Source of the DNA: Syntrophobacteraceae bacterium
GTDB taxonomy: Bacteria; Desulfobacterota; Syntrophobacteria; Syntrophobacterales; Syntrophobacteraceae
Direction of reading: 5' to 3'
DNA length: 64,000 nt
NCBI GenBank assembly: GCA_031292215.1
Contig: JARLHO010000068.1
Location: 1 to 64,000 of the forward strand
Made by a program: the position numbers and the translations under genes. A model generated the notes under the pieces. It was not told where the DNA came from and searched no databases. It was given only the letters and a program-made list of their open reading frames with translations. Positions 5,300 through 61,495 of the stretch are shown here, piece after piece; positions within the stretch are counted from its first letter, which is position 1, and every line of letters starts with the position of its first letter.

Positions 5300-7816
5300 A
5301 TGTTTGATCAAAATTTGACGTGTGTTGAAAGACCCGGCCGATACATTGGCCAGGAACTTAACGCTTACAACAAAAGTTTCGAGGACGCTTCGGTCCGTTT
5401 TGCCCTGGCATTTCCGGATGTCTACGAAATAGGCATGAGTCATCTAGGCCTTAAGCTCCTTTATCGTCAATTAAACGAAGCCGAGGGAGTGATGGCCGAC
5501 AGGGTCTACGCTCCCTGGCCCGATTTCGAGGAAAAACTAAGAAGGGAATCCGAGCCGCTTCGAGGAATCGAATGCGAGCACGCTCTAAGCGATTTCGATT
5601 TCCTGGGTGTCAGCCTCCAGTATGAACTGAGCTATACGAACATTTTGACCATGCTAGACCTTGGCCGCATCCCGCTCTACAGTCGCGAGCGAACCGTGGC
5701 CCATCCGTTTGTGGTCGGGGGCGGTCCGTGCGCCTTTAATCCCGAACCCCTGGCCGATTTTTTCGACTTTTTCGTCCTTGGGGAAGCCGAAGAGGTCCTG
5801 CCCGAGATCATTGGGGCGTACAGGGCCTGGAAGAGTGCAGGCGGTGGCTTGCGGGAAGGTTTCCTGGAGGCGCTGCGCGCCATACCCGGTGTCTATGTGC
5901 CTTCATTTTTTGCGGTCTCCTATTTTGAAGGGGGCGAAATATCCGCGGTTATGCCGAAGTTTTCAAACTACACCCGGGTGGTGAAAAGGGTCGTCCAGGA
6001 TTTTGACCGTGTGTGCCCGATTCCCGAAAATCCGCTGGTGCCGATTATAGACATCGTTCACAACCGCCTGGGCATCGAGATCGCAAGGGGTTGTACCCGG
6101 GGATGCCGTTTTTGCCAGGCCGGCTTTATTTACCGGCCCGTTCGCGAACGTGGGCCGGGGTACGTCATTGAGGCCGCAAGAAAGGCTCTTGCCGCAAGCG
6201 GCTTTGAAGACGTAGCGCTTCTTTCCTTGAGCACCGGGGATTATTGCCGGATACAAGAGTTGCTGGCTCAGTTGGTGGGAGAACTCGCCCCCCGAAGGAT
6301 CGGCGTCTCGTTTCCGTCGATGCGCGTAGGGACTCTTACCCCGGAGCTTATGGCCCATGTGAAAAAGGTTCGAAAAACCGGCTTTACCCTGGCGCCCGAG
6401 GCCGGGAGCGAGCGTTTGCGGCGAGTCATAAACAAGGGGATATGCGACTCGGATCTCCTCGATGCCGCCGGGGCGGCCTTTGACATGGGGTGGCGGCTAA
6501 TAAAGCTCTACTTCATGATGGGGCTTCCAGGAGAAACCGAGGCCGACCGCCAGGCGATCGTCGATCTGTGCATGAGGGTCCGGGAAAGGGGCAAGAAGAC
6601 CAAGTCGTCGATAAACGTGTCGATATCGACCTTCGTGCCCAAGCCCCTTTCTCCTTTCCAGTGGTCGGCGCAAATGGAGGGGGGGCAAATTGAGGAATGC
6701 ATCCGGCAGTTTAAGGATAGGCTGAGAAAGCCCGGTTTGAGATTTAAATGGAACAAGGCCGGCAGCAGCATTTTGGAGGCGGTGTTTGCCCGCGGGGACC
6801 GAAGGCTTGGGGCCGCGCTAAAGCGGGCATGGGATTTGGGGGCAAGGTTTGACGGCTGGACAGATCACTTCCGGGAAGACCTCTGGCAAAGGGCCTTGGA
6901 AGAAACCGGGCTTAGCGCCCGCTTTTTTGCCGAGCGCCAAAGAAGTCCAGAGGAAATCCTGCCCTGGGACCACCTGTCGGCGGGTGTGGATCGCAGCTTC
7001 CTGTGGAGTGAATATGAAAAGGCCATGGGCGAACAATTTACAGGTGATTGCCGGCAGGGCTCATGCTCGGTGTGCGGTGTCTGCGATCACGCGGGGATTG
7101 CCCCCTTTGTCCACAAAGAGGTTGCTCCGTTTCAGGAAAAGCCCGGCAATGGGCCCATCTCCTGCGGGGCCGATAAGGAATTTGTCTACCGGGTGATTTA
7201 TTCCAAGCTTGGGAAGGCGCGATTTTTCGGTCAACTGGAAATTGCCGCGGCTCTTGAGAGGGCGCTTAGACGAGCGGACCTTCAGGCGGCGTTTAGCAAG
7301 GGCTTTAATCCCCATCCGAGAATTTCCTTTGGCGAGGCCCTGCCGCTGGGTATGGAAACGATAGTGGCCGAGGCCTACATCGGGCTAAGCGAAAGGATCG
7401 ACACCGCATTGATGCGCGAGCGGTTAAACGGCCAGTTAAACGGGCTTATCCGGATATCGGTTGTCGAACGGATCGAAAAGAAACCGGCGCCCCACCCGGC
7501 AACCCGGGGCGTCTATCTGGTGTCGGGGTTAGAGCCCTCGCTCGCCCGAGCTCTTTTGGACATCTGGCCCCGAAGCGGCGCCACTGAGCTGACCAAAAAG
7601 ACAAAAAGGGGGGAGGCCACGGCAAGGCTGGACCGTGTGGTTATGGATATGCGAAAAGGCGGGGAAAGCTCCCTGGAAATGGATGTCTACGAGACGCAGG
7701 GGTTTTGCTTCAGGCCGATGGCGATTCTTGAAAGCCTTGCCGGATCGCGGGCCGAGGAGCTCAAAAACTGCCTGATTTGCAAAATTGGGTCCTACCGCTC
7801 GGAGACGAGGGAATAA
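5300..7816 (+). CDS. B12-binding-type radical SAM protein fused to DUF2344 (TIGR03960/TIGR03936)
   Basis: An 838-residue fusion. The N-terminal part resembles a B12-binding Rossmann domain (AFPDVYEIGMSHLGLKLLY). A radical SAM core follows with its cluster motif in CTRGCRFCQAG (Cx3Cx2C). A short Cys-rich linker (QGSCSVCGVCDH) leads to a C-terminal DUF2344 domain starting near FVYRVIYSKLGKARFFGQLE. The two halves are often separate adjacent genes next to rng; here they are one polypeptide. The substrate is not known to me, and linkage to RNase G suggests an RNA-related task (inference). ATG 5300 has only a distant AGGAAAGG. Confidence 0.88.
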   Translation: MFDQNLTCVERPGRYIGQELNAYNKSFEDASVRFALAFPDVYEIGMSHLGLKLLYRQLNEAEGVMADRVYAPWPDFEEKLRRESEPLRGIECEHALSDFDFLGVSLQYELSYTNILTMLDLGRIPLYSRERTVAHPFVVGGGPCAFNPEPLADFFDFFVLGEAEEVLPEIIGAYRAWKSAGGGLREGFLEALRAIPGVYVPSFFAVSYFEGGEISAVMPKFSNYTRVVKRVVQDFDRVCPIPENPLVPIIDIVHNRLGIEIARGCTRGCRFCQAGFIYRPVRERGPGYVIEAARKALAASGFEDVALLSLSTGDYCRIQELLAQLVGELAPRRIGVSFPSMRVGTLTPELMAHVKKVRKTGFTLAPEAGSERLRRVINKGICDSDLLDAAGAAFDMGWRLIKLYFMMGLPGETEADRQAIVDLCMRVRERGKKTKSSINVSISTFVPKPLSPFQWSAQMEGGQIEECIRQFKDRLRKPGLRFKWNKAGSSILEAVFARGDRRLGAALKRAWDLGARFDGWTDHFREDLWQRALEETGLSARFFAERQRSPEEILPWDHLSAGVDRSFLWSEYEKAMGEQFTGDCRQGSCSVCGVCDHAGIAPFVHKEVAPFQEKPGNGPISCGADKEFVYRVIYSKLGKARFFGQLEIAAALERALRRADLQAAFSKGFNPHPRISFGEALPLGMETIVAEAYIGLSERIDTALMRERLNGQLNGLIRISVVERIEKKPAPHPATRGVYLVSGLEPSLARALLDIWPRSGATELTKKTKRGEATARLDRVVMDMRKGGESSLEMDVYETQGFCFRPMAILESLAGSRAEELKNCLICKIGSYRSETRE

Positions 7817-7911
7817 TTTCGGTTAAAGGTGTGGAAGGGGGGAGCTTTAGAAAAAACTTTCCGCCCTCCCCGGTGAATCGAATTCTAGTGAAAACTCGCG
7901 GGGGAAACAAA

Positions 7912-9474
7912 ATGTCGGCTGAACTGATCATTAACAGCAATGCATTTGAAACTCGCGTAGCGCTGATAGAAAATGGGCAGGTTGCCGAACTCTATATCGA
8001 AAGAAGTTCAGACAAAGGGATTTCGGGAAACATTTACAAGGGGCGGGTCGTGCGGGTACTTCCCGGCATGCAGGCAGCGTTTGTGGATATCGGTCTGGAT
8101 AAGGCCGCCTTCCTCTACGTAACCGATGTCTGTCGGCCGATGGGCGAAATCGAGCAGCTCCTTATCGCCTCGCCGGTTGACGAGGGGGAAAATGGCGCCG
8201 GCGAGCCTCTCGGGGGGGACCGGGACGAGTGCAATGATATCGACCTGCACCGCGACTCCGGTTTGGTCCCGATAGAGGACAGGCTGCAGGAAGGCCAGGA
8301 GATCCTGGTGCAGGTGGCCAAGGAGCCTATTGGAACCAAGGGCGCCAGGATAACGACCCATATTACCCTGCCCGGAAGGAACCTGGTGTTTATGCCCACG
8401 ATGGATCGTGTGGGAGTCTCTCGAAGAATTGAAAACGAAGAGGAGCGAAAGCGCCTCCGAGACATAGTCTGTGAGATAAAGCCCCCCGATTGCGGCTTTA
8501 TCGTGCGAACGGTCGCAGAAGGGGCTGAAAGTGAAAAGCTTTGCTCCGAGTCCGATTTTGTGGCCAGGCTCTGGCAATCCATCCTGCGAAGGTCCGAAAA
8601 CGCACCTGCCCCCTGCCTGATCTACCGGGAGCTGGACATTACGCTTCGCGCGGTCCGCGATCTTTTTACCAAGGAAGTCGACAAACTCGTCGTGGACTCA
8701 AAGGTGGAGTATAAAAAAATTCTAAACTTCACCGAGACCTTCCTGCCGGCCCTTTGCAGCGAGGTCGAGCTCTACGGGGGAGAGGAGCCGATATTTGACG
8801 CCTACGGGATCGAGATGGAGATTCAGAGGGCTCTTAGCAAAAAGATTTGGTTAAAATCCGGGGGATATATTGTCATAGAATCGACCGAAGCCCTTACGGC
8901 CATAGACGTTAACACCGGCAGATACGTTGGAAAGCGCAGCCTGGAGGAGACGATTCTTAAAACGAATCTCGAGGCGGTAAAAGAGATCGCTTATCAGTTG
9001 CGGCTAAGAAATATCGGTGGAATCATCATCATCGATTTTATCGATATGGAAAAGGAGGCGAACCGGGAAAGAGTCTGGAACGGACTGCGGGCCGCCACTT
9101 ACAAGGACAAGAGCAAATCAAACATCTTGCGCCTCTCGGAACTGGGGCTGATCGAGATGACCCGCAAGCGCACCAAGGAATCCATCGGCCATATTCTTTG
9201 CGAACCGTGCTTTTACTGCGACGGCGAAGGCCACTTAAAATCCAAGCAGACGGTTTGCTACGAAATCCTAAGAGAACTCGAGCGGCAAAGGGAAGATTCC
9301 TACGGCAGAAACATGATCGTAATGACTCATCCGGAGGTCGCGGCCATGTTCTACGATGAAGAGCGTGCGGCCCTCGAACGGGTCGAGGAGAGAATGCACG
9401 CGACGATCTCGGTTAAGGCCGACCCGAACCTCCACCTGGAAAACTATGACATTGCAACGTTGGAGGCCGAATGA
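7912..9474 (+). CDS. rng: Ribonuclease G / E-type endoribonuclease
   Basis: A 520-residue RNase E/G-family endonuclease that cleaves single-stranded AU-rich RNA and matures rRNA and mRNA ends. An S1 RNA-binding domain near the N-terminus (SGNIYKGRVVRVLPGMQAAF) carries an acidic insertion (about residues 80-125). The DNase I-like catalytic part holds the two metal-binding Asp stretches (AIDVNTGRYVG and IIIIDFIDM), and the Zn-link CxxC lies in CEPCFYCDGEG. The frame opens at 7777, but ATG 7912 is preceded by GGGGGAAA and gives the family's usual N-terminus. The stop overlaps hemL by four bases (ATGA). Confidence 0.95.
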   Translation: MSAELIINSNAFETRVALIENGQVAELYIERSSDKGISGNIYKGRVVRVLPGMQAAFVDIGLDKAAFLYVTDVCRPMGEIEQLLIASPVDEGENGAGEPLGGDRDECNDIDLHRDSGLVPIEDRLQEGQEILVQVAKEPIGTKGARITTHITLPGRNLVFMPTMDRVGVSRRIENEEERKRLRDIVCEIKPPDCGFIVRTVAEGAESEKLCSESDFVARLWQSILRRSENAPAPCLIYRELDITLRAVRDLFTKEVDKLVVDSKVEYKKILNFTETFLPALCSEVELYGGEEPIFDAYGIEMEIQRALSKKIWLKSGGYIVIESTEALTAIDVNTGRYVGKRSLEETILKTNLEAVKEIAYQLRLRNIGGIIIIDFIDMEKEANRERVWNGLRAATYKDKSKSNILRLSELGLIEMTRKRTKESIGHILCEPCFYCDGEGHLKSKQTVCYEILRELERQREDSYGRNMIVMTHPEVAAMFYDEERAALERVEERMHATISVKADPNLHLENYDIATLEAE

Positions 9475-53348: not shown

Positions 53349-53864
53349 ATGAAGATCAGGCGGTTGGTTTGTGCTGCGGGAATTATTTCGCTGATGGTGG
53401 TGGGGTTGGGAAGCTTTTCCTATGCCGGGGAACAGGCGACCCCGGGGGATATCACCCAGAAGGTAAAGGATGCGGCGGCTTCTTTGGAAAAATCGAAAGG
53501 AGCAAACTTGGCCGATTTCGATAATCCGAAAGGCCCCTGGGTCTTTAAGGACACCTATGTATACGTTCAGGATTGCGGCAAGGGGACCATGGCGGCTCAC
53601 CCCTTTGCAAAGCAGCTCGTGGGCAAAAATGTCGCGGGATTGCAGGACGTGAAGGGCAATTTCCTTACTGCCGAGATTTGTGCTGCCGGCAAGAAGCCGG
53701 GGGGCGGCTGGACCGAGTACTGGTTTCCCAAGCCGGGGGAAAAGACCCCTTCGCGAAAGGTCAGTTATGCCCTTGAGGCGCCCGGCTCTTCTTTGGTCGT
53801 AACCGCCGGAATGTATAGCGATACGCTCAAGGTGAGCGATCTTGACGGTCAACTGAAGAAATAG
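53349..53864 (+). CDS. Secreted single Cache domain protein (copy 1)
   Basis: 171 residues. A signal peptide (about 1-26, ending SFSYA) leads to a Cache_2-type sensor domain ([59 protein letters not shown]). There is no second membrane helix, so it should be a free periplasmic ligand-binding protein. Two Cys (in VQDCGKG and AEICAAG) are conserved in the second copy and may pair. It is followed after 89 bp by a chemoreceptor gene, and the whole pair is duplicated downstream, so the two proteins probably act together. Confidence 0.85.
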
Positions 53865-53953
53865 GCGCAGCGGGAAATCGGATATCGAATATACTGAAAA
53901 TGCTTGGAAATCGGGGTGTCTCGCAAGACACCCCCCCCCAAGGGAGTAAGATG

Positions 53954-55849
53954 ATGAGGATAAGCTATAAGATTGCGCTTTTGGTTTCAGTGGCCCTGCT
54001 TTTGTATCTGATTTCCTCCGCCGTCTTTTTCGTTCTTAACGGGAAAACAACGAAGTACTATGATTTTTCATCGAAAATTAAAGATTTCGATAACTGCCTG
54101 CTAACGACCATCATCCACGAGAAGGATTACAGCCTACATTTGGACGCTAAGAGCGCGGATGACGTCCTTGCAGGAAATACGAAGAGCAGCCAATATCTAA
54201 AAGAGATCGAAAGCCGCGCGGAAGGCGAGGGCAACGATTTCCAGGCTCTTACCGGGGCCCTGCAAAATTATCGGACGACTTTTCAACATCTGCAAAGAAA
54301 CAATCAGGACATTTATTCCCTCAAACGTGAAGTCAATAAATCTTTGGACCAACTCCTGGCCAAGTCCGCCGAAATCGCCGCGCAAATTAACACTATCCGG
54401 GGAATGACCCTCATGCAGGGCGGCAGCGAGGAAGACTCGAGTCTTAACTCTCTGATTGTGGCCACAAAGGCCATGGTGGCGGGCTCTTCGGAACTCGTTC
54501 TGGTTATCGACCGGGACCTGCTGCTCGATAACAACGAAAAGAGCTATTCTGACCAGTGGAAAAAAATATCGGCGGATTTGAACTCGCAGCAAAGCAACAC
54601 AACCGCCCTGGTCGGGATGCTCAAGGAAACCGAATTCAAGAGTTACGCAGCTCTAATCAACCGGGCGATTCCCTCGATGCTAAAAGATGCCCAGGCAATT
54701 TATAAGCTTTGGCTGGAGAACCGTGGACTTACGGCGCAATTGAACTCGGTGCGCGATGGAATCATCGCCCGTGACACCTCGATGATGGCTTCCATCAAAG
54801 AGCGTCTGGGGCAAATCGAGCGTAGCGGCCGACTCATGAACTTCGCTTCCATGGGAATAATCTTTTTGGTGCTGATCGCCGGCGGCATATTTATCGGACG
54901 CTCCATCACCATCGCCATCCGCAGGCTCAGCGAGCAGCTTCGCCAGGGGGCCGACTGGACGGCCATGGCGGCGGTCCAGATGATCTCGGCCAGCCATTCG
55001 CTGGCCGATGGAGCCTCCGAACAGGCCGCGGCCCTCGAAGAGACTTCCTCCTCTCTTGAGCAGACCGCGTCCATGACCAGGAGCAACGCCCACAATGCCC
55101 ATGGGTCAAACTCGCTCATGAAGGAAATCAGCCGGACCGTCGAACGGTCGAATCGGTCGATGCTAAAAGTAAAGGATTCGATGGCGGAAATCTCCCAGTC
55201 GAGCCAAGAGACCCAGGCCATTGTAAAGACGATAGACGAAATCTCGTTTCAGACAAATCTTTTGGCCCTAAATGCCGCAGTGGAAGCGGCGCGGGCCGGG
55301 GAAGCGGGGGCGGGGTTCGCCGTGGTTGCCGGTGAGGTGAGAAACCTCGCCATGCGCGCCGCGGATGCGGCGCGAAATACCGCGGACTTAATCGAAGCGA
55401 CCGTAAAAAGAGTCCATGATGGGGCCGCTGTGGCGGCGCAGGCTTACAATGAGTTTGCCGGCGTTACGAAAAACATCTCCAAGGCCGCCGAAATGGTCGA
55501 AGAAATAGCGCACGCCTCCGAAGAGCAGGCCCGAGGCGCCGAGCAGATCAATAAGGCTGTTTCGGATATGGACAAAGTGACCCAAAAAAATGCCGCAGAC
55601 GCCGAGGAATCGGCCTCCGTTTGCGAGGAACTGGGCGTCAGGGCAAAACGTATGAAGCAGTTGGTCTTCGATCTGGTCTCCCTGGTCGGAGGGACTAATG
55701 GGGCCGCTGCCGAAGAAATAAGCCCCGTCAAAAAGGCGGGGAAAAAGAGAGATAAGGCAGGCAAGTTCAGGGCACTTTTGGGTAGAGCCAAGGGGAAGGA
55801 TCGCGGCCGCTCGGAGGGAGCTCTTGAAGGTCGCCCGGAAGATTTTTAA
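53954..55849 (+). CDS. Methyl-accepting chemotaxis protein, pair 1
   Basis: 631 residues. TM1 at about 5-27, a helical periplasmic sensor of about 270 residues resembling the HBM type ([10 protein letters not shown] near its start), TM2 ([16 protein letters not shown], about 300-315), then a cytoplasmic signalling hairpin with the tip [20 protein letters not shown]. No C-terminal pentapeptide tether. ATG 53954 is used because AAGGGAG lies seven bases upstream and the paralogue also begins [12 protein letters not shown] 53951 is possible. The signalling half is nearly identical in DNA to that of the next receptor. Confidence 0.93.
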
Positions 55850-56266
55850 CGGCGGCGGGCGCCATGAAACAACGTTCCAACTTGTTCCCTTTGGATCCAT
55901 TCCACGACTTTCCCCCTCGGTCGGGGGGAAGTCGTAGAGCCTGCGGGAACGTTTTTTAGGTCCCGCGTTTTTACGGGACAAAACCCACCCCCGTTTTACC
56001 ATCGGTTCCGCTCGTTTCGCGCTATCCCGAGCCCGGGCTCTAAAAAGTTTGAACGAGCCGTTTACCTACCGCCTCATTCCGGCTGCGAGTTTGTTTTTAT
56101 CGGCATGGCGCCTCCATGGCCGCCATTACCTTCATCCAAAATGTTCTCATGGGAAAGGAGCGATCGACCGATCTTGATTTATGGGAAGCGTGGCCCTCAA
56201 AGCCCCGGCGTTTTGGGGGCTAGGAAACTAAATGGACTAACGGGTTTCGATCGGAAAGGGAAATAG
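55850..56266. other. Intergenic region between the duplicated pairs
   Basis: About 415 bp. A strong hairpin at 55904-55935 (ACGACTTTCCCCC with GGGGGGAAGTCGT) and a second one at about 55943-55966 (GCGGGA/TCCCGC around a T6 run) probably end the first receptor transcript. The rest is the upstream region of the second Cache gene. Confidence 0.5.
55904..55935 (+). terminator. Hairpin after the pair-1 chemoreceptor
   Basis: A 13-bp stem with one G-U pair and a six-base loop, 55 bp past the stop. Short T-runs follow only after the second hairpin. Confidence 0.5.
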
Positions 56267-56782
56267 ATGAAAATGAGACGGATTATCGGGGCGGCAGGAA
56301 TTATTTCACTAATAACACTGGGGTCTTGCGGAGTTCTCTTCGCCCAGGGCGCGGCTACTCCTCAGCAGGTCATGCAAAAGGTAAAGGATGCCGTCACTTC
56401 TTTGGAGAAATCGAAAGGGGCCAACCTTGCGGATTTTGACAACCCGAAAGGCCCCTGGGTATTTGCAGACAGCTATATCGTTGTGCAGGACTGCGATAAG
56501 GGAACCACGGCGACCCACCCCTTCGTTCCTAAGCTTATCGGCAAGAAAACCGTCGGCATGCAGGATGTCAAAGGCAATTTCTTTTTCGTCCAGCTCTGCG
56601 AAGCGGGGAAAAAACCAGGCGGTGGATGGATCGAATACTGGTTTCCCAAGCCGGGGGAAAAAACGCCCTCCCGCAAGCTAAGCTACGCTCTCCAGGTGCA
56701 GGGCACTTCTTTGGTAGCTCTTGCTGGAATTTACAACGACAGTCTCAAGCTTGACGATCTCAACAAGATGGTGGGCAAATAA
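56267..56782 (+). CDS. Secreted single Cache domain protein (copy 2)
   Basis: 171 residues, the same length as copy 1 and clearly its paralogue. The signal peptide ends near GVLFAQGAA. The Cache domain keeps [37 protein letters not shown] and both internal Cys. Differences cluster in the middle segment that should form the ligand pocket (THPFVPKLIGKKTVGMQ against [17 protein letters not shown]), which suggests a related but distinct ligand. The next chemoreceptor starts 98 bp downstream. Confidence 0.85.
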   Translation: MKMRRIIGAAGIISLITLGSCGVLFAQGAATPQQVMQKVKDAVTSLEKSKGANLADFDNPKGPWVFADSYIVVQDCDKGTTATHPFVPKLIGKKTVGMQDVKGNFFFVQLCEAGKKPGGGWIEYWFPKPGEKTPSRKLSYALQVQGTSLVALAGIYNDSLKLDDLNKMVGK

Positions 56783-56880
56783 GACTTGGATGCATCTGAC
56801 TTTGGAAGACCGCAATCGAAAACTTCGAAAGCGGCAAAGGGAATGCGGGTGGCGCAGACACTCGGCATGGGAGTTGACCG

Positions 56881-58797
56881 ATGAGGATTAGTTACAAAAT
56901 TGCATTGTTGATTTCGGTAGCTCTGTTTCTGTATCTGGTCTCTTCGGGCGTCTCTTACGTTCTTAGCCTGAAGACGACCAATTCCTTCAATTTTTTCTCC
57001 ACGATCAAAGACTTCGAAACCGGTCTTCTCAATACCATTATTCACGAAAAGGACTACAGCCTCAGTCTGGATGGGAAAAGCGCCGATGAGGTGCTTAGCG
57101 GTAATCAAAAAAGCAGTCGGTATCTAAAAGATATCGAGTCACACGCGGAAGGCGGGCAGGATTTCGGCGCCCTTTCCCAGTCTATTTTGAAATATCGTGA
57201 AACCTTTGAACAACTGGTAAAAAACAATCGGGAAATTTCGTCGCTAAAAGAGCGGCTCGACAAGTCTTCCGACGCTCTTATGGCCGCTTCGGACCGGACA
57301 TCGGGGGAAGTCAACAGCATTATCGGCATGGCCCTCACACAGGGTGAGGACGCCGATCCAACGCTTAACTCCCTCATCGTGGCCGCCAAAACGATCGTCT
57401 CGGGCTCCTCGGAGTTTGTCCTTACGGTGGACCGGGACCTGTTGCTAAATAACAATGAAAAAACATACCTCGAGCGTTTGGGAAAAATTTCACCTGTGTT
57501 GTTAAAGGAGCGCAACAACGTGACGGCCCTTGTCTCGACCATAAAAGATGAGGGGGTGAAGGGCTATCCCGAAGCGCTCAACAAGCTGATCCCGCACATG
57601 GAGAGCACATCTGAAAAAATTCATCAGCTCTGGCTCCAAAACCGGGAGCTTGTGGCTCAATTAAATGGAGTGCGAAAGCAGATAATCAGCAGCGACGCCT
57701 CGATGATCGCCTCTGTCAAGGAGCGTCTGGGGCAAATCGAGCGTAGCGGCCGACTCATGAACTTCGCCTCCGTGGGAATAATCTTTCTGGTGCTGATCGC
57801 CGGCGGCATATTTATCGGACGCTCCATCACCATCGCCATCCGCAGGCTCAGCGTGCGGCTTCGCGAGGGGGCCGACTGGACGGCCATGGCGGCGGTCCAG
57901 ATGATCTCGGCCAGTAATTCCCTGGCCGATGGGGCCTCCGAACAGGCCGCGGCCCTCGAAGAGACCTCCTCCTCTCTTGAGCAGACCGCGTCCATGACCA
58001 GGAGTAACGCCCACAATGCCCATGGGTCAAACTCGCTCATGAAGGAAATCAGCCGGACCGTCGAACGGTCGAATCAGTCGATGCTAAAAGTGAAGGATTC
58101 GATGGCGGAAATCTCCCAGTCGAGCGAACAGACTCAGGCCATTGTAAAGACGATAGACGAAATCTCCTTTCAGACAAATCTTTTGGCCTTAAATGCCGCA
58201 GTGGAAGCCGCGCGGGCGGGGGAGGCGGGCGCGGGGTTCGCCGTGGTTGCCGGTGAGGTGAGAAACCTTGCCATGCGCGCCGCGGAGGCGGCGCGAAATA
58301 CCGCAGACTTAATCGAAGCGACCGTAAAGAGAGTCCATGATGGGACCGCTGTGGCGACGCAGGCTTACAATGAGTTCGCGGGGGTTTCGAAAAACATCTC
58401 CAAAGCCGCCGAAATGGTCGAAGAAATCGCGCACGCCTCCGAAGAGCAGGCCAGAGGATCGGAGCAGATCAATAAAGCTGTTACGGATATGGACAAAGTG
58501 ACCCAAAAGAATGCCGCGGACGCCGAGGAAACCGCCTCGGTGTGCGAGGAGCTGGGCGCCAAGGCAAAACTTATGAAACTGTTGGTCTTAGAACTGGTCT
58601 CCCTGGTCGGAGGGGCCAATGGGGGCAGTGGGGAAGAAAAAAGCTCCGCCCCCCAAAGAGGGGAAAAGAAAACAGAAGTGAAACGGGGTGTTTGGGGCGC
58701 TCTTTGGGGTAAGTCCGAGTCGAGGGATGACGGCCGCTCCGAGAGGGGCATGGAGCATCATCGGGAAGAACAAAACGAGCAGGAAGCATCGTTTTAA
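56881..58797 (+). CDS. Methyl-accepting chemotaxis protein, pair 2
   Basis: 638 residues, with the same architecture as the pair-1 receptor: TM1 (about 5-27), an HBM-like helical sensor ([10 protein letters not shown]), TM2 ([16 protein letters not shown]) and a signalling hairpin. From about 57718 to 58560 the DNA nearly matches 54796-55640, whereas the sensor halves differ throughout. The Lys-rich C-terminal tail also differs. ATG 56881 has no strong Shine-Dalgarno (GGGAGTTGACCG upstream). A co-duplicated partner of the second Cache protein. Confidence 0.93.
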
Positions 58798-59698: not shown

Positions 59699-61495
59699 GT
59701 GAATGCGCTGACCCTGGTTATTGTGGCCTTGTGTGTTTTTGCCCTGGGATATCGTTTCTACGGCATTTTTATAGCCAACAGGGTGCTGGGAATCGATCCC
59801 GAGAAAAGGACCCCGGCCCATGTCCTCGAAGATGGGATCGATTATTGTCCCACAAACAAGTATGTGCTTTTTGGACATCATTTCGCGGCCATCGCTGCCG
59901 CAGGCCCCCTTCTGGGACCCGTTCTGGCGGCCCAATTCGGCTATCTCCCCGGCGCCTTGTGGATCATTATCGGAGCAGTCGTAGCCGGTGGGGTCCACGA
60001 TATGGTCATCCTTTTCGCTTCGATGCGCCACAATGGGAAAAGCATATCGCTCATCGCCGAATCCGAGATCGGAAAGTCGGCAGGCGTAGTAGCCGGGTTC
60101 GCCGTGATCTTCATTCTCATCCTGACCCTTGCCGGGCTCTCGCTAGCTGAGGTCAACGCCATGATGAACAGCCCCTGGAGCGCCTACACCGTCTTCTGCA
60201 CCCTCCCCATCGCCGTTATCATGGGTATCTGGATGCGTATGGTGAGGCCGGGAGATGTGGCGGGAGCAAGTATGGTCGGCGTCGCGCTCCTGGCGCTGGT
60301 AATCGTAACCGGCCCCTTTATAGCCGCTCATCCCGTTTTTTCCCACTGGTTTACCCTGTCAAAAAATCAATGCGCCCTTTTTATCGCTGTCTATGGTTTT
60401 GCCGCCTCGGCTCTGCCTGTCTGGCTGCTCCTGCTGCCGCGCGATTATCTTTCCACCTATCTAAAACTTGGAACCATAACCGCCCTTGCCCTTGGCATCG
60501 TCGTGGTGCATCCGTACCTGCAAATGGGGGCTTTCACCAAATTTATCCACGGAGGCGGGCCTCTTGTGGCTGCCCCCGGTTCGGTTTTTCCATTCCTGTT
60601 CATAACCATTGCCTGCGGCGCATTATCGGGCTTTCACGCAATAATTGGCGCCGGCACCACCCCGAAGATGATCGATAATGAAAAAGACATCATCTTCGTA
60701 GGCTATGGAGCCATGCTAACCGAGGGGTTTGTCGCAATAATGGCCCTCATTGCCGCCTGCGTGCTGGTCCCTTCCGATTATTTCGCGATCAATGCCTCTG
60801 CGGCAGTCTACAAGACCCTTGGCATGTCTCCGGTGCATCTTCCGCAATTGGCGAAAATGGTCCAGGAACATGTCCAGGGCAGGCCCGGGGGCGCGGTATC
60901 GCTTGCGGTCGGCATGGCCTATATATTTAGCTCGATTCCCTTCATGAAAGCGCTCATGGCATACTGGTATCATTTCGCGATCATGTTTGAGGCCGTCTTT
61001 ATCCTGACCGCCGTTGACGCCGGAACACGGGTGGGAAGATATATGCTCCAGGAAATGATCGGAAAAGTGATTCCAAAATTTTCCGAAGAAAGATGGATAC
61101 CCGGCATCGTCATAACAAGCGCTCTTTTCACCTGCACATGGGGGTACCTGGTCTACACCGGCAACATCACGATAATCTGGCCGCTTTTTGGCATGAGCAA
61201 CCAACTGCTTGCCGCCTGCGCTCTGATCGTTGGAACGACCATGATCATGGCGATGGGGAAAATGAAATACTCATGGATCACCGCCGTTCCGGGCATTTTA
61301 ATGCTGCCCGTTACGATGAGTGCGGGCTACTATCTGATAAAGCTAAATCTAGCGCAGGCTAATTACCTGTTGGTCTTATTCGCTGCCTCGCTTATGGCCC
61401 TTATGGCGATCGTTTTCGTCCTGGCCTTCAGGAAATGGATCTTGCTCTTCCGGCAGGCCAAAACCATGGGTAATCTGGCGCTAACCGCAAGGTAG
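59699..61495 (+). CDS. cstA: Carbon starvation protein CstA family transporter
   Basis: A 598-residue inner-membrane protein with many helices. Family marks include the N-terminal YRFYGIFIANRVLGID, the FGHHFAAIAAAGPLLGPVLAA signature and GAGTTPKMIDNEKDI. CstA/BtsT proteins import pyruvate or peptides. GTG 59699 follows AAGGGGGAACAG closely. A short upstream region after repeat copy F holds a possible TATAGA -10 element near 59590. No regulator gene of this family is adjacent. Confidence 0.94.
   Translation: MNALTLVIVALCVFALGYRFYGIFIANRVLGIDPEKRTPAHVLEDGIDYCPTNKYVLFGHHFAAIAAAGPLLGPVLAAQFGYLPGALWIIIGAVVAGGVHDMVILFASMRHNGKSISLIAESEIGKSAGVVAGFAVIFILILTLAGLSLAEVNAMMNSPWSAYTVFCTLPIAVIMGIWMRMVRPGDVAGASMVGVALLALVIVTGPFIAAHPVFSHWFTLSKNQCALFIAVYGFAASALPVWLLLLPRDYLSTYLKLGTITALALGIVVVHPYLQMGAFTKFIHGGGPLVAAPGSVFPFLFITIACGALSGFHAIIGAGTTPKMIDNEKDIIFVGYGAMLTEGFVAIMALIAACVLVPSDYFAINASAAVYKTLGMSPVHLPQLAKMVQEHVQGRPGGAVSLAVGMAYIFSSIPFMKALMAYWYHFAIMFEAVFILTAVDAGTRVGRYMLQEMIGKVIPKFSEERWIPGIVITSALFTCTWGYLVYTGNITIIWPLFGMSNQLLAACALIVGTTMIMAMGKMKYSWITAVPGILMLPVTMSAGYYLIKLNLAQANYLLVLFAASLMALMAIVFVLAFRKWILLFRQAKTMGNLALTAR

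Follow-up and report, generated by a model that had tools for sequence, protein, structure and literature searches.

Tar and Trg, the classical chemoreceptors that respond to binding proteins, have four-helix-bundle sensors, and their bilobal binding proteins are shared with ABC transporters and encoded elsewhere. CtpL, an HBM receptor, does not bind phosphate itself but responds to PstS loaded with it, and TorS senses by way of the binding protein TorT (PMC5126104, PMC6321045). Binding proteins that activate receptors have been described in a review as bilobal (PMC6321045), and according to a preprint >90% of Cache domains occur in fusion with a signalling module, stand-alone ones being "highly unusual" and treated there only for a heme-bearing Cache (PMC12889525). 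Here we describe two tandem gene pairs at positions 53349-58797 of a 64,000-nucleotide stretch of DNA from a Syntrophobacteraceae bacterium (GCA_031292215.1, contig JARLHO010000068.1, positions 1 to 64,000; this whole stretch is called the window below), each consisting of a gene for a secreted single-domain Cache protein and a gene for a chemoreceptor, i.e. a methyl-accepting chemotaxis protein (MCP), with a helical sensor. We consider it probable that each pair forms a periplasmic carboxylate chemoreceptor in two parts, in which ligand binding falls to the secreted Cache protein, which would dock on the HBM-fold sensor of its neighbour.

Gene pairs and the helical sensor

In a preliminary description of the window, the genes of each pair were said to lie within 100 bp of each other, the Cache proteins to have a signal peptide only, and the receptors to carry a different, helical sensor; the genes were found as described (Table 1). 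The gaps between the Cache and receptor genes were 86 bp and 98 bp in pairs 1 and 2, respectively. Both Cache proteins had a hydrophobic segment at the N-terminus only and one sCache_2 domain (PF17200), which scored 75.1 and 73.2 bits, respectively, above the gathering cut-off of 25 bits. This domain is usually, though not obligatorily, located inside a membrane receptor, a setting different from that of the 171-residue window proteins. The MCP signalling domain (PF00015) was present in both receptors, and neither HAMP nor Cache was detected in them in a Pfam search up to E = 1. In the genome to which the window belongs, the helical sensor family was confined to these two receptor genes, and all remaining Cache matches were situated in frames of >500 amino acids. 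The closest named relative was a Syntrophobacteraceae metagenome-assembled genome. Since the genome also has CheW-family genes and flagellins, chemotaxis is plausible.

The sensor family alignment contained 20 members of 265-276 residues, in which two positions, F83 and W226, were invariant and few others were conserved. The Pfam HBM model (PF16591) gave only partial matches of 16.7-19.7 bits to the sensor, below its gathering cut-off of 29.8 bits, and matched 2/20 family members at E up to 0.1; when solved structures were searched with the sensor sequence, coiled-coil noise was all that came up. The AlphaFold2 model of the window sensor had six helices, two of them long, and its best match among solved structures was the HBM domain of McpS (2yfa), which superposed with 2.4 Å over 233 residues. 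The TorS sensor and the TorT-TorS complexes (3o1h/i/j, Z ~16) were also matched, and unrelated helical proteins gave Z ≤12.9. A six-helix HBM/TorS-like fold is predicted with confidence from this model, for a sequence that is distant from known HBM members (~9% identity to McpS).

Table 1. Positions in the window of the genes and domains of the two pairs, with the evidence for each
Feature	Position	Strand	Evidence
Cache protein 1, 171 amino acids: signal peptide and single sCache_2 domain; putative carboxylate pocket Y70, H84, Y124, K137	53349..53864	+	PF17200 E 7.5e-21; pocket by alignment to PscD 5g4y
Chemoreceptor 1, 632 amino acids: first transmembrane segment (TM1), helical sensor of ~270 residues, second transmembrane segment (TM2), MCP signalling domain; no HAMP detected	53951..55849	+	PF00015 E 5.6e-42; TM segments by hydropathy
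Receptor 1 periplasmic sensor domain; six helices, predicted HBM/TorS-like fold	54035..54841	+	AlphaFold2 pLDDT 90.1, pTM 0.84; McpS 2yfa Z 20.6, TorS 3i9w Z 18.0
Receptor 1 signalling half, near-identical to receptor 2 at ~57771-58530; high-identity boundary	54850..55600	+	Sliding DNA identity
Cache protein 2, 171 amino acids: signal peptide (lipobox-like LGSC) and single sCache_2 domain; pocket-lining 72 V (copy 1 Y), 107 F (copy 1 T)	56267..56782	+	PF17200 E 2.8e-20
Chemoreceptor 2, 638 amino acids, layout as receptor 1	56881..58797	+	PF00015 E 2.5e-42; 72% identity to receptor 1
Receptor 2 periplasmic sensor domain, ~55% identical to receptor 1 sensor	56956..57762	+	Family alignment

Pairing and co-inheritance of Cache protein and sensor

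Scanning of the Cache alignment against 84,980 species genomes yielded 79 loci. At 22 of the 27 testable loci of Desulfobacterota/SAR324, an MCP gene was located immediately downstream of the standalone Cache gene (at L117, with another Cache gene in between); 19 of these MCPs had the same helical sensor family and three had a dCache-type sensor. The remaining five loci were L092, L135 (MCP on the opposite flank), L113, and L089 and L124 (<1 kb of contig left). At L092, the receptor was situated 2.3 kb beyond the Cache gene, with unrelated open reading frames between them (6516-8823), by eye one Fic-like and one acetyltransferase-like; these may represent an insertion that left both partners retained.

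In the reverse survey, a profile of the sensor was run against 395 Desulfobacterota genomes, 24 of which were matched. A standalone sCache gene was the immediate neighbour of 25/28 sensor-family genes with enough flank, and of 22/25 independent ones after the window's two genes and one genome in the profile had been left out. The exceptions included L171, separated by one gene from its cluster's Cache, and L185, a weak partial match with no Cache. Among other MCPs of the same genomes, taken as a control, a standalone Cache was found nearby in 1-2 of 40 (Fisher p 4e-13 to 5e-12 for sensor-family receptors versus control MCPs), the two positives being an opposite-strand Cache that belongs to the module itself and a further Cache plus helical-receptor pair (L256). 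Five genomes from a single family (L170, L172, L174, L175 and L177) had the swapped order, with the Cache gene downstream of the receptor gene and adjacency retained, and the adjacency spanned many families with differing signalling classes. The pairing of a Cache protein with a helical receptor is thus real and widespread in Desulfobacterota. Cultured strains that carry it include Desulfoferrobacter suflitae DRH4 (L096) and Desulfospira joergensenii DSM 10085 (L161).

Pairing with chemoreceptors is not exclusive for this kind of Cache. No MCP gene was found immediately beside the standalone Cache at the loci of Acidobacteria, Gemmatimonadetes and Gammaproteobacteria, and the notion that every standalone Cache is a chemoreceptor partner was rejected on this ground. 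Among the neighbours tested at these non-Desulfobacterota loci were genes for a dihydrodipicolinate synthase and a glycosyltransferase, and at two loci, L148 and L156, the standalone sCache gene was directly upstream of a histidine kinase gene whose product matched dCache_1 weakly. Tandem standalone Cache genes or two-Cache proteins, some without a nearby receptor, occurred at L044, L045, L047, L059, L072, L076 and L117.

Between copies 1 and 2 of the window, protein identity was 64% for the Cache, 72% for the whole receptor and ~55% for the sensor. Copy 1 was nearer to the only pair present in a congeneric genome, with identities of 77% (Cache) and 66% (sensor), than to copy 2, and because this held for both Cache 1 and sensor 1, duplication of Cache and receptor together is supported by the sequence comparison. 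The signalling halves of receptors 1 and 2 (54850-55600 and 57771-58530) were 92-93% identical, with mostly 94-99% identity per 100-bp DNA window, and the sensor DNA was 64% identical overall (54-72% in sliding windows). The break was located at the sensor end, a pattern that suggests recent gene conversion or strong homogenisation of the signalling halves, sharply bordered at this point.

Among 39 non-redundant pairs, the tree distances of Cache and sensor were correlated with a Spearman coefficient of 0.71 (0/2000 permutations, p ~0.0005 or less, the permutation tests on distances leaving shared ancestry in), and the signalling domain gave 0.14 versus the Cache and 0.10 versus the sensor. 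With a stricter definition of the signalling domain (33 pairs), the coefficients were 0.67 for Cache and sensor, 0.22 for Cache and signalling domain, and 0.11 for sensor and signalling domain. Within 11 pairs of one signalling class the Cache-signalling correlation was 0.63, as would be expected in the absence of swapping. Furthermore, a C-terminal Cache tail of ~14 residues or longer was present in 15/15 partners of one sensor clade, and most partner Caches of the other clade ended directly after G-[IV]-Y. Taken together, the distance correlations, the co-variation of the tail and the identity break in the window suggest that the inherited unit is the Cache plus the helical sensor, relative to which signalling domains appear to be exchangeable or homogenised.

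These results bear on the remaining claims of the preliminary description, in which the pair was taken to have been duplicated as a unit and possibly to form a two-part sensor, with co-variation across relatives counting for this sensor and free separation of the two genes counting against it. Joint duplication agrees with the comparison above, co-variation was found, and the genes did not separate freely as far as the receptor's sensor family is concerned. As for the two-part sensor, functional pairing gains strong support from the two-way adjacency relative to the control, the swapped order and the Cache-sensor correlation; docking, like ligand binding and the direction of the response, is what we infer.

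Putative carboxylate pocket and the proposed two-part sensor

The nearest solved relatives of the window Caches were 4k08 (Adeh_3718) and 5g4y (PscD). The ligands of PscD are acetate, glycolate, propionate and pyruvate, the carboxylate being held by Tyr90, His103, Tyr143 and Lys156 and surrounded by Trp92, Phe126 and Trp145; McpP and Adeh_3718 have the same residue at each of these seven positions (PMC5062169). In the window Caches, the four carboxylate-holding residues align with Y70, H84, Y124 and K137, respectively, which were invariant in the 36-41 paired Caches covering them. The pocket lining of copy 1/copy 2 was Y/V at position 72, T/F at position 107 and F/F at position 126. Because the carboxylate residues are kept and the lining differs, the ligand is likely a small carboxylate, and the two copies possibly bind different ones.

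The sensor could alternatively bind a ligand of its own, in the way McpS and McpK do, the Cache protein being an independent or additive scavenger or delivery protein that shares the operon. McpS is indeed the best fold match of the sensor, and the HBM domains of McpS, McpQ and McpK bind organic acids themselves (PMC5126104). We nevertheless regard this as unlikely, since the adjacency is specific to the sensor family, the Cache distances track the sensor and not the signalling domain, and the sensor family has no conserved arginine and a single mostly K/R position (K147, 83%), as opposed to the invariant pocket of the Cache.

In the mechanism that we favour, the secreted Cache protein would bind a small carboxylate in the periplasm, the likeliest being C2-C3 acids (acetate, propionate, pyruvate or lactate, for example), and, ligand-bound or free, would dock on the HBM-fold sensor of the neighbouring chemoreceptor. 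Docking would shift the helical sensor, the signal would cross the membrane to the chemotaxis kinase, and in evolution the Cache and the helical sensor would stay together while signalling domains were swapped. A docking Cache protein might also be an antagonist or adaptor that modulates the receptor, for example by blocking it when ligand-free, rather than the main ligand-binding part. Periplasmic accessory modulators exist, QseG with the kinase QseE being an example (PMC12691602), and this role would otherwise account for the data equally well; we hold it to be highly improbable, as the fully conserved carboxylate pocket suggests that ligand binding matters.

Several observations weigh against a ligand-binding Cache that docks on the helical sensor. 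At L099, L118 and L130, a soluble Cache, encoded directly upstream, is paired with a dCache receptor, and L181 has the helical sensor with no adjoining Cache gene. Perhaps the combination of an sCache protein with a dCache-type receptor or kinase (L099, L118 and L130; L148 and L156) constitutes a second kind of pair. Single-chain AlphaFold2 modelling of the L084 Cache and sensor, read through stop codons, produced two well-folded domains (mean pLDDT of 90.9) but a pTM of 0.59 with no confident mutual position, from a shallow alignment (28 rows, 6 paired) and with a monomer standing for a dimeric receptor. In addition, co-transfer of a contiguous DNA block that recombines in the conserved signalling region could yield the distance correlation without protein contact. 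In its strict form, this would mean that the Cache gene and the 5′ half of the receptor gene recombine as one block and that their products act separately, with which the position of the sensor at the receptor 5′ end, beside the Cache gene, and the break in the window at the sensor/signalling border are both in keeping. Block co-transfer is unlikely to be the whole story, because gene order is reversed in some genomes: in the five genomes mentioned above the Cache gene lies beyond the receptor 3′ end, with the same sensor family still paired, and the adjacency extends across many families of differing signalling classes. We therefore judge co-transfer alone to be quite improbable.

Some features in and around the module were noticed in addition. 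In the signal peptide of Cache 2 (window 56267-56340), LGSC resembles a lipobox, and Cache 1 has no cysteine there; judging from this motif, Cache 2 might be membrane-anchored. Promoter and terminator scans at the pairs performed no better than on shuffled sequence, and the operon structure is putative. Two genes just downstream of the module (window 59699-61495 and 62607 onward; L078 2608-4620) encode a pyruvate/proton symporter of the CstA family and a CoA-transferase, which as weak evidence fit acid metabolism. MCPs with a C-terminal Cache of the window type, positioned past the signalling domain with no membrane helix between, were found at L087 (4582-6420) and in the genome of the window (G000:C160:37653-38624; L080 5651-7147, minus strand). 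The C-terminal Cache of these MCPs is predicted to be cytoplasmic; that of L087 was 49% identical to the window Cache, and several congeneric genomes hold similar frames.

Comparison with described systems

We are inclined to view the free Cache as serving an HBM-fold receptor in the manner of a periplasmic binding protein, the Cache-sensor couple of Desulfobacterota as a portable input unit placed on varied signalling domains, and the duplicates in the window as tuned to different small carboxylates. If so, free Cache proteins dedicated to a helical receptor would make up a new class of binding partner, a testable function could be proposed for a group of secreted Cache proteins that lack one, and a small two-protein system would be at hand for studying how protein docking is read by a helical sensor. 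It would also be a candidate route by which anaerobic acid oxidisers such as Syntrophobacteraceae find acetate or propionate. A literature search restricted to open-licence papers found no published pair of a soluble Cache and an HBM chemoreceptor; a seemingly close Campylobacter paper concerns tlp2-phoX and was set aside.

As proposed, the arrangement resembles CtpL-PstS of Pseudomonas aeruginosa phosphate chemotaxis in that an HBM-type chemoreceptor would respond to a periplasmic protein carrying the ligand. PstS, however, is a bilobal transport binding protein, whereas the soluble partner in the window has one Cache domain, its gene adjoins that of the receptor, and the pair lacks a transporter. 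TorT-TorS, which senses trimethylamine N-oxide in E. coli and Vibrio, offers the fold predicted for the window sensor together with a dedicated periplasmic sensing protein; there the receiver is a histidine kinase and TorT is bilobal, in contrast to the MCP and Cache domain of the window. McpS and McpK, the former being the top structural match of the sensor, bind organic acids directly, and the window sensor differs from them in its low identity to McpS and its Pfam HBM score below the cut-off. With the C2-C3 carboxylate chemoreceptors PscD, McpP and Adeh_3718, the window Caches share the Cache family and identical carboxylate-holding residues, but in those receptors the Cache sits between two membrane helices, whereas in the window it is separate and secreted. 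Tar with MBP and Trg with the sugar-binding proteins, the comparison drawn in the preliminary description, exemplify the principle of binding-protein-dependent chemotaxis (PMC6321045) that is proposed here; the window departs from them by an HBM-like sensor and by a single Cache domain encoded alongside. The parts, namely sCache_2, the HBM-like fold and the MCP, are thus known, and the comparison suggests that their arrangement is new within binding-protein-dependent chemoreception.

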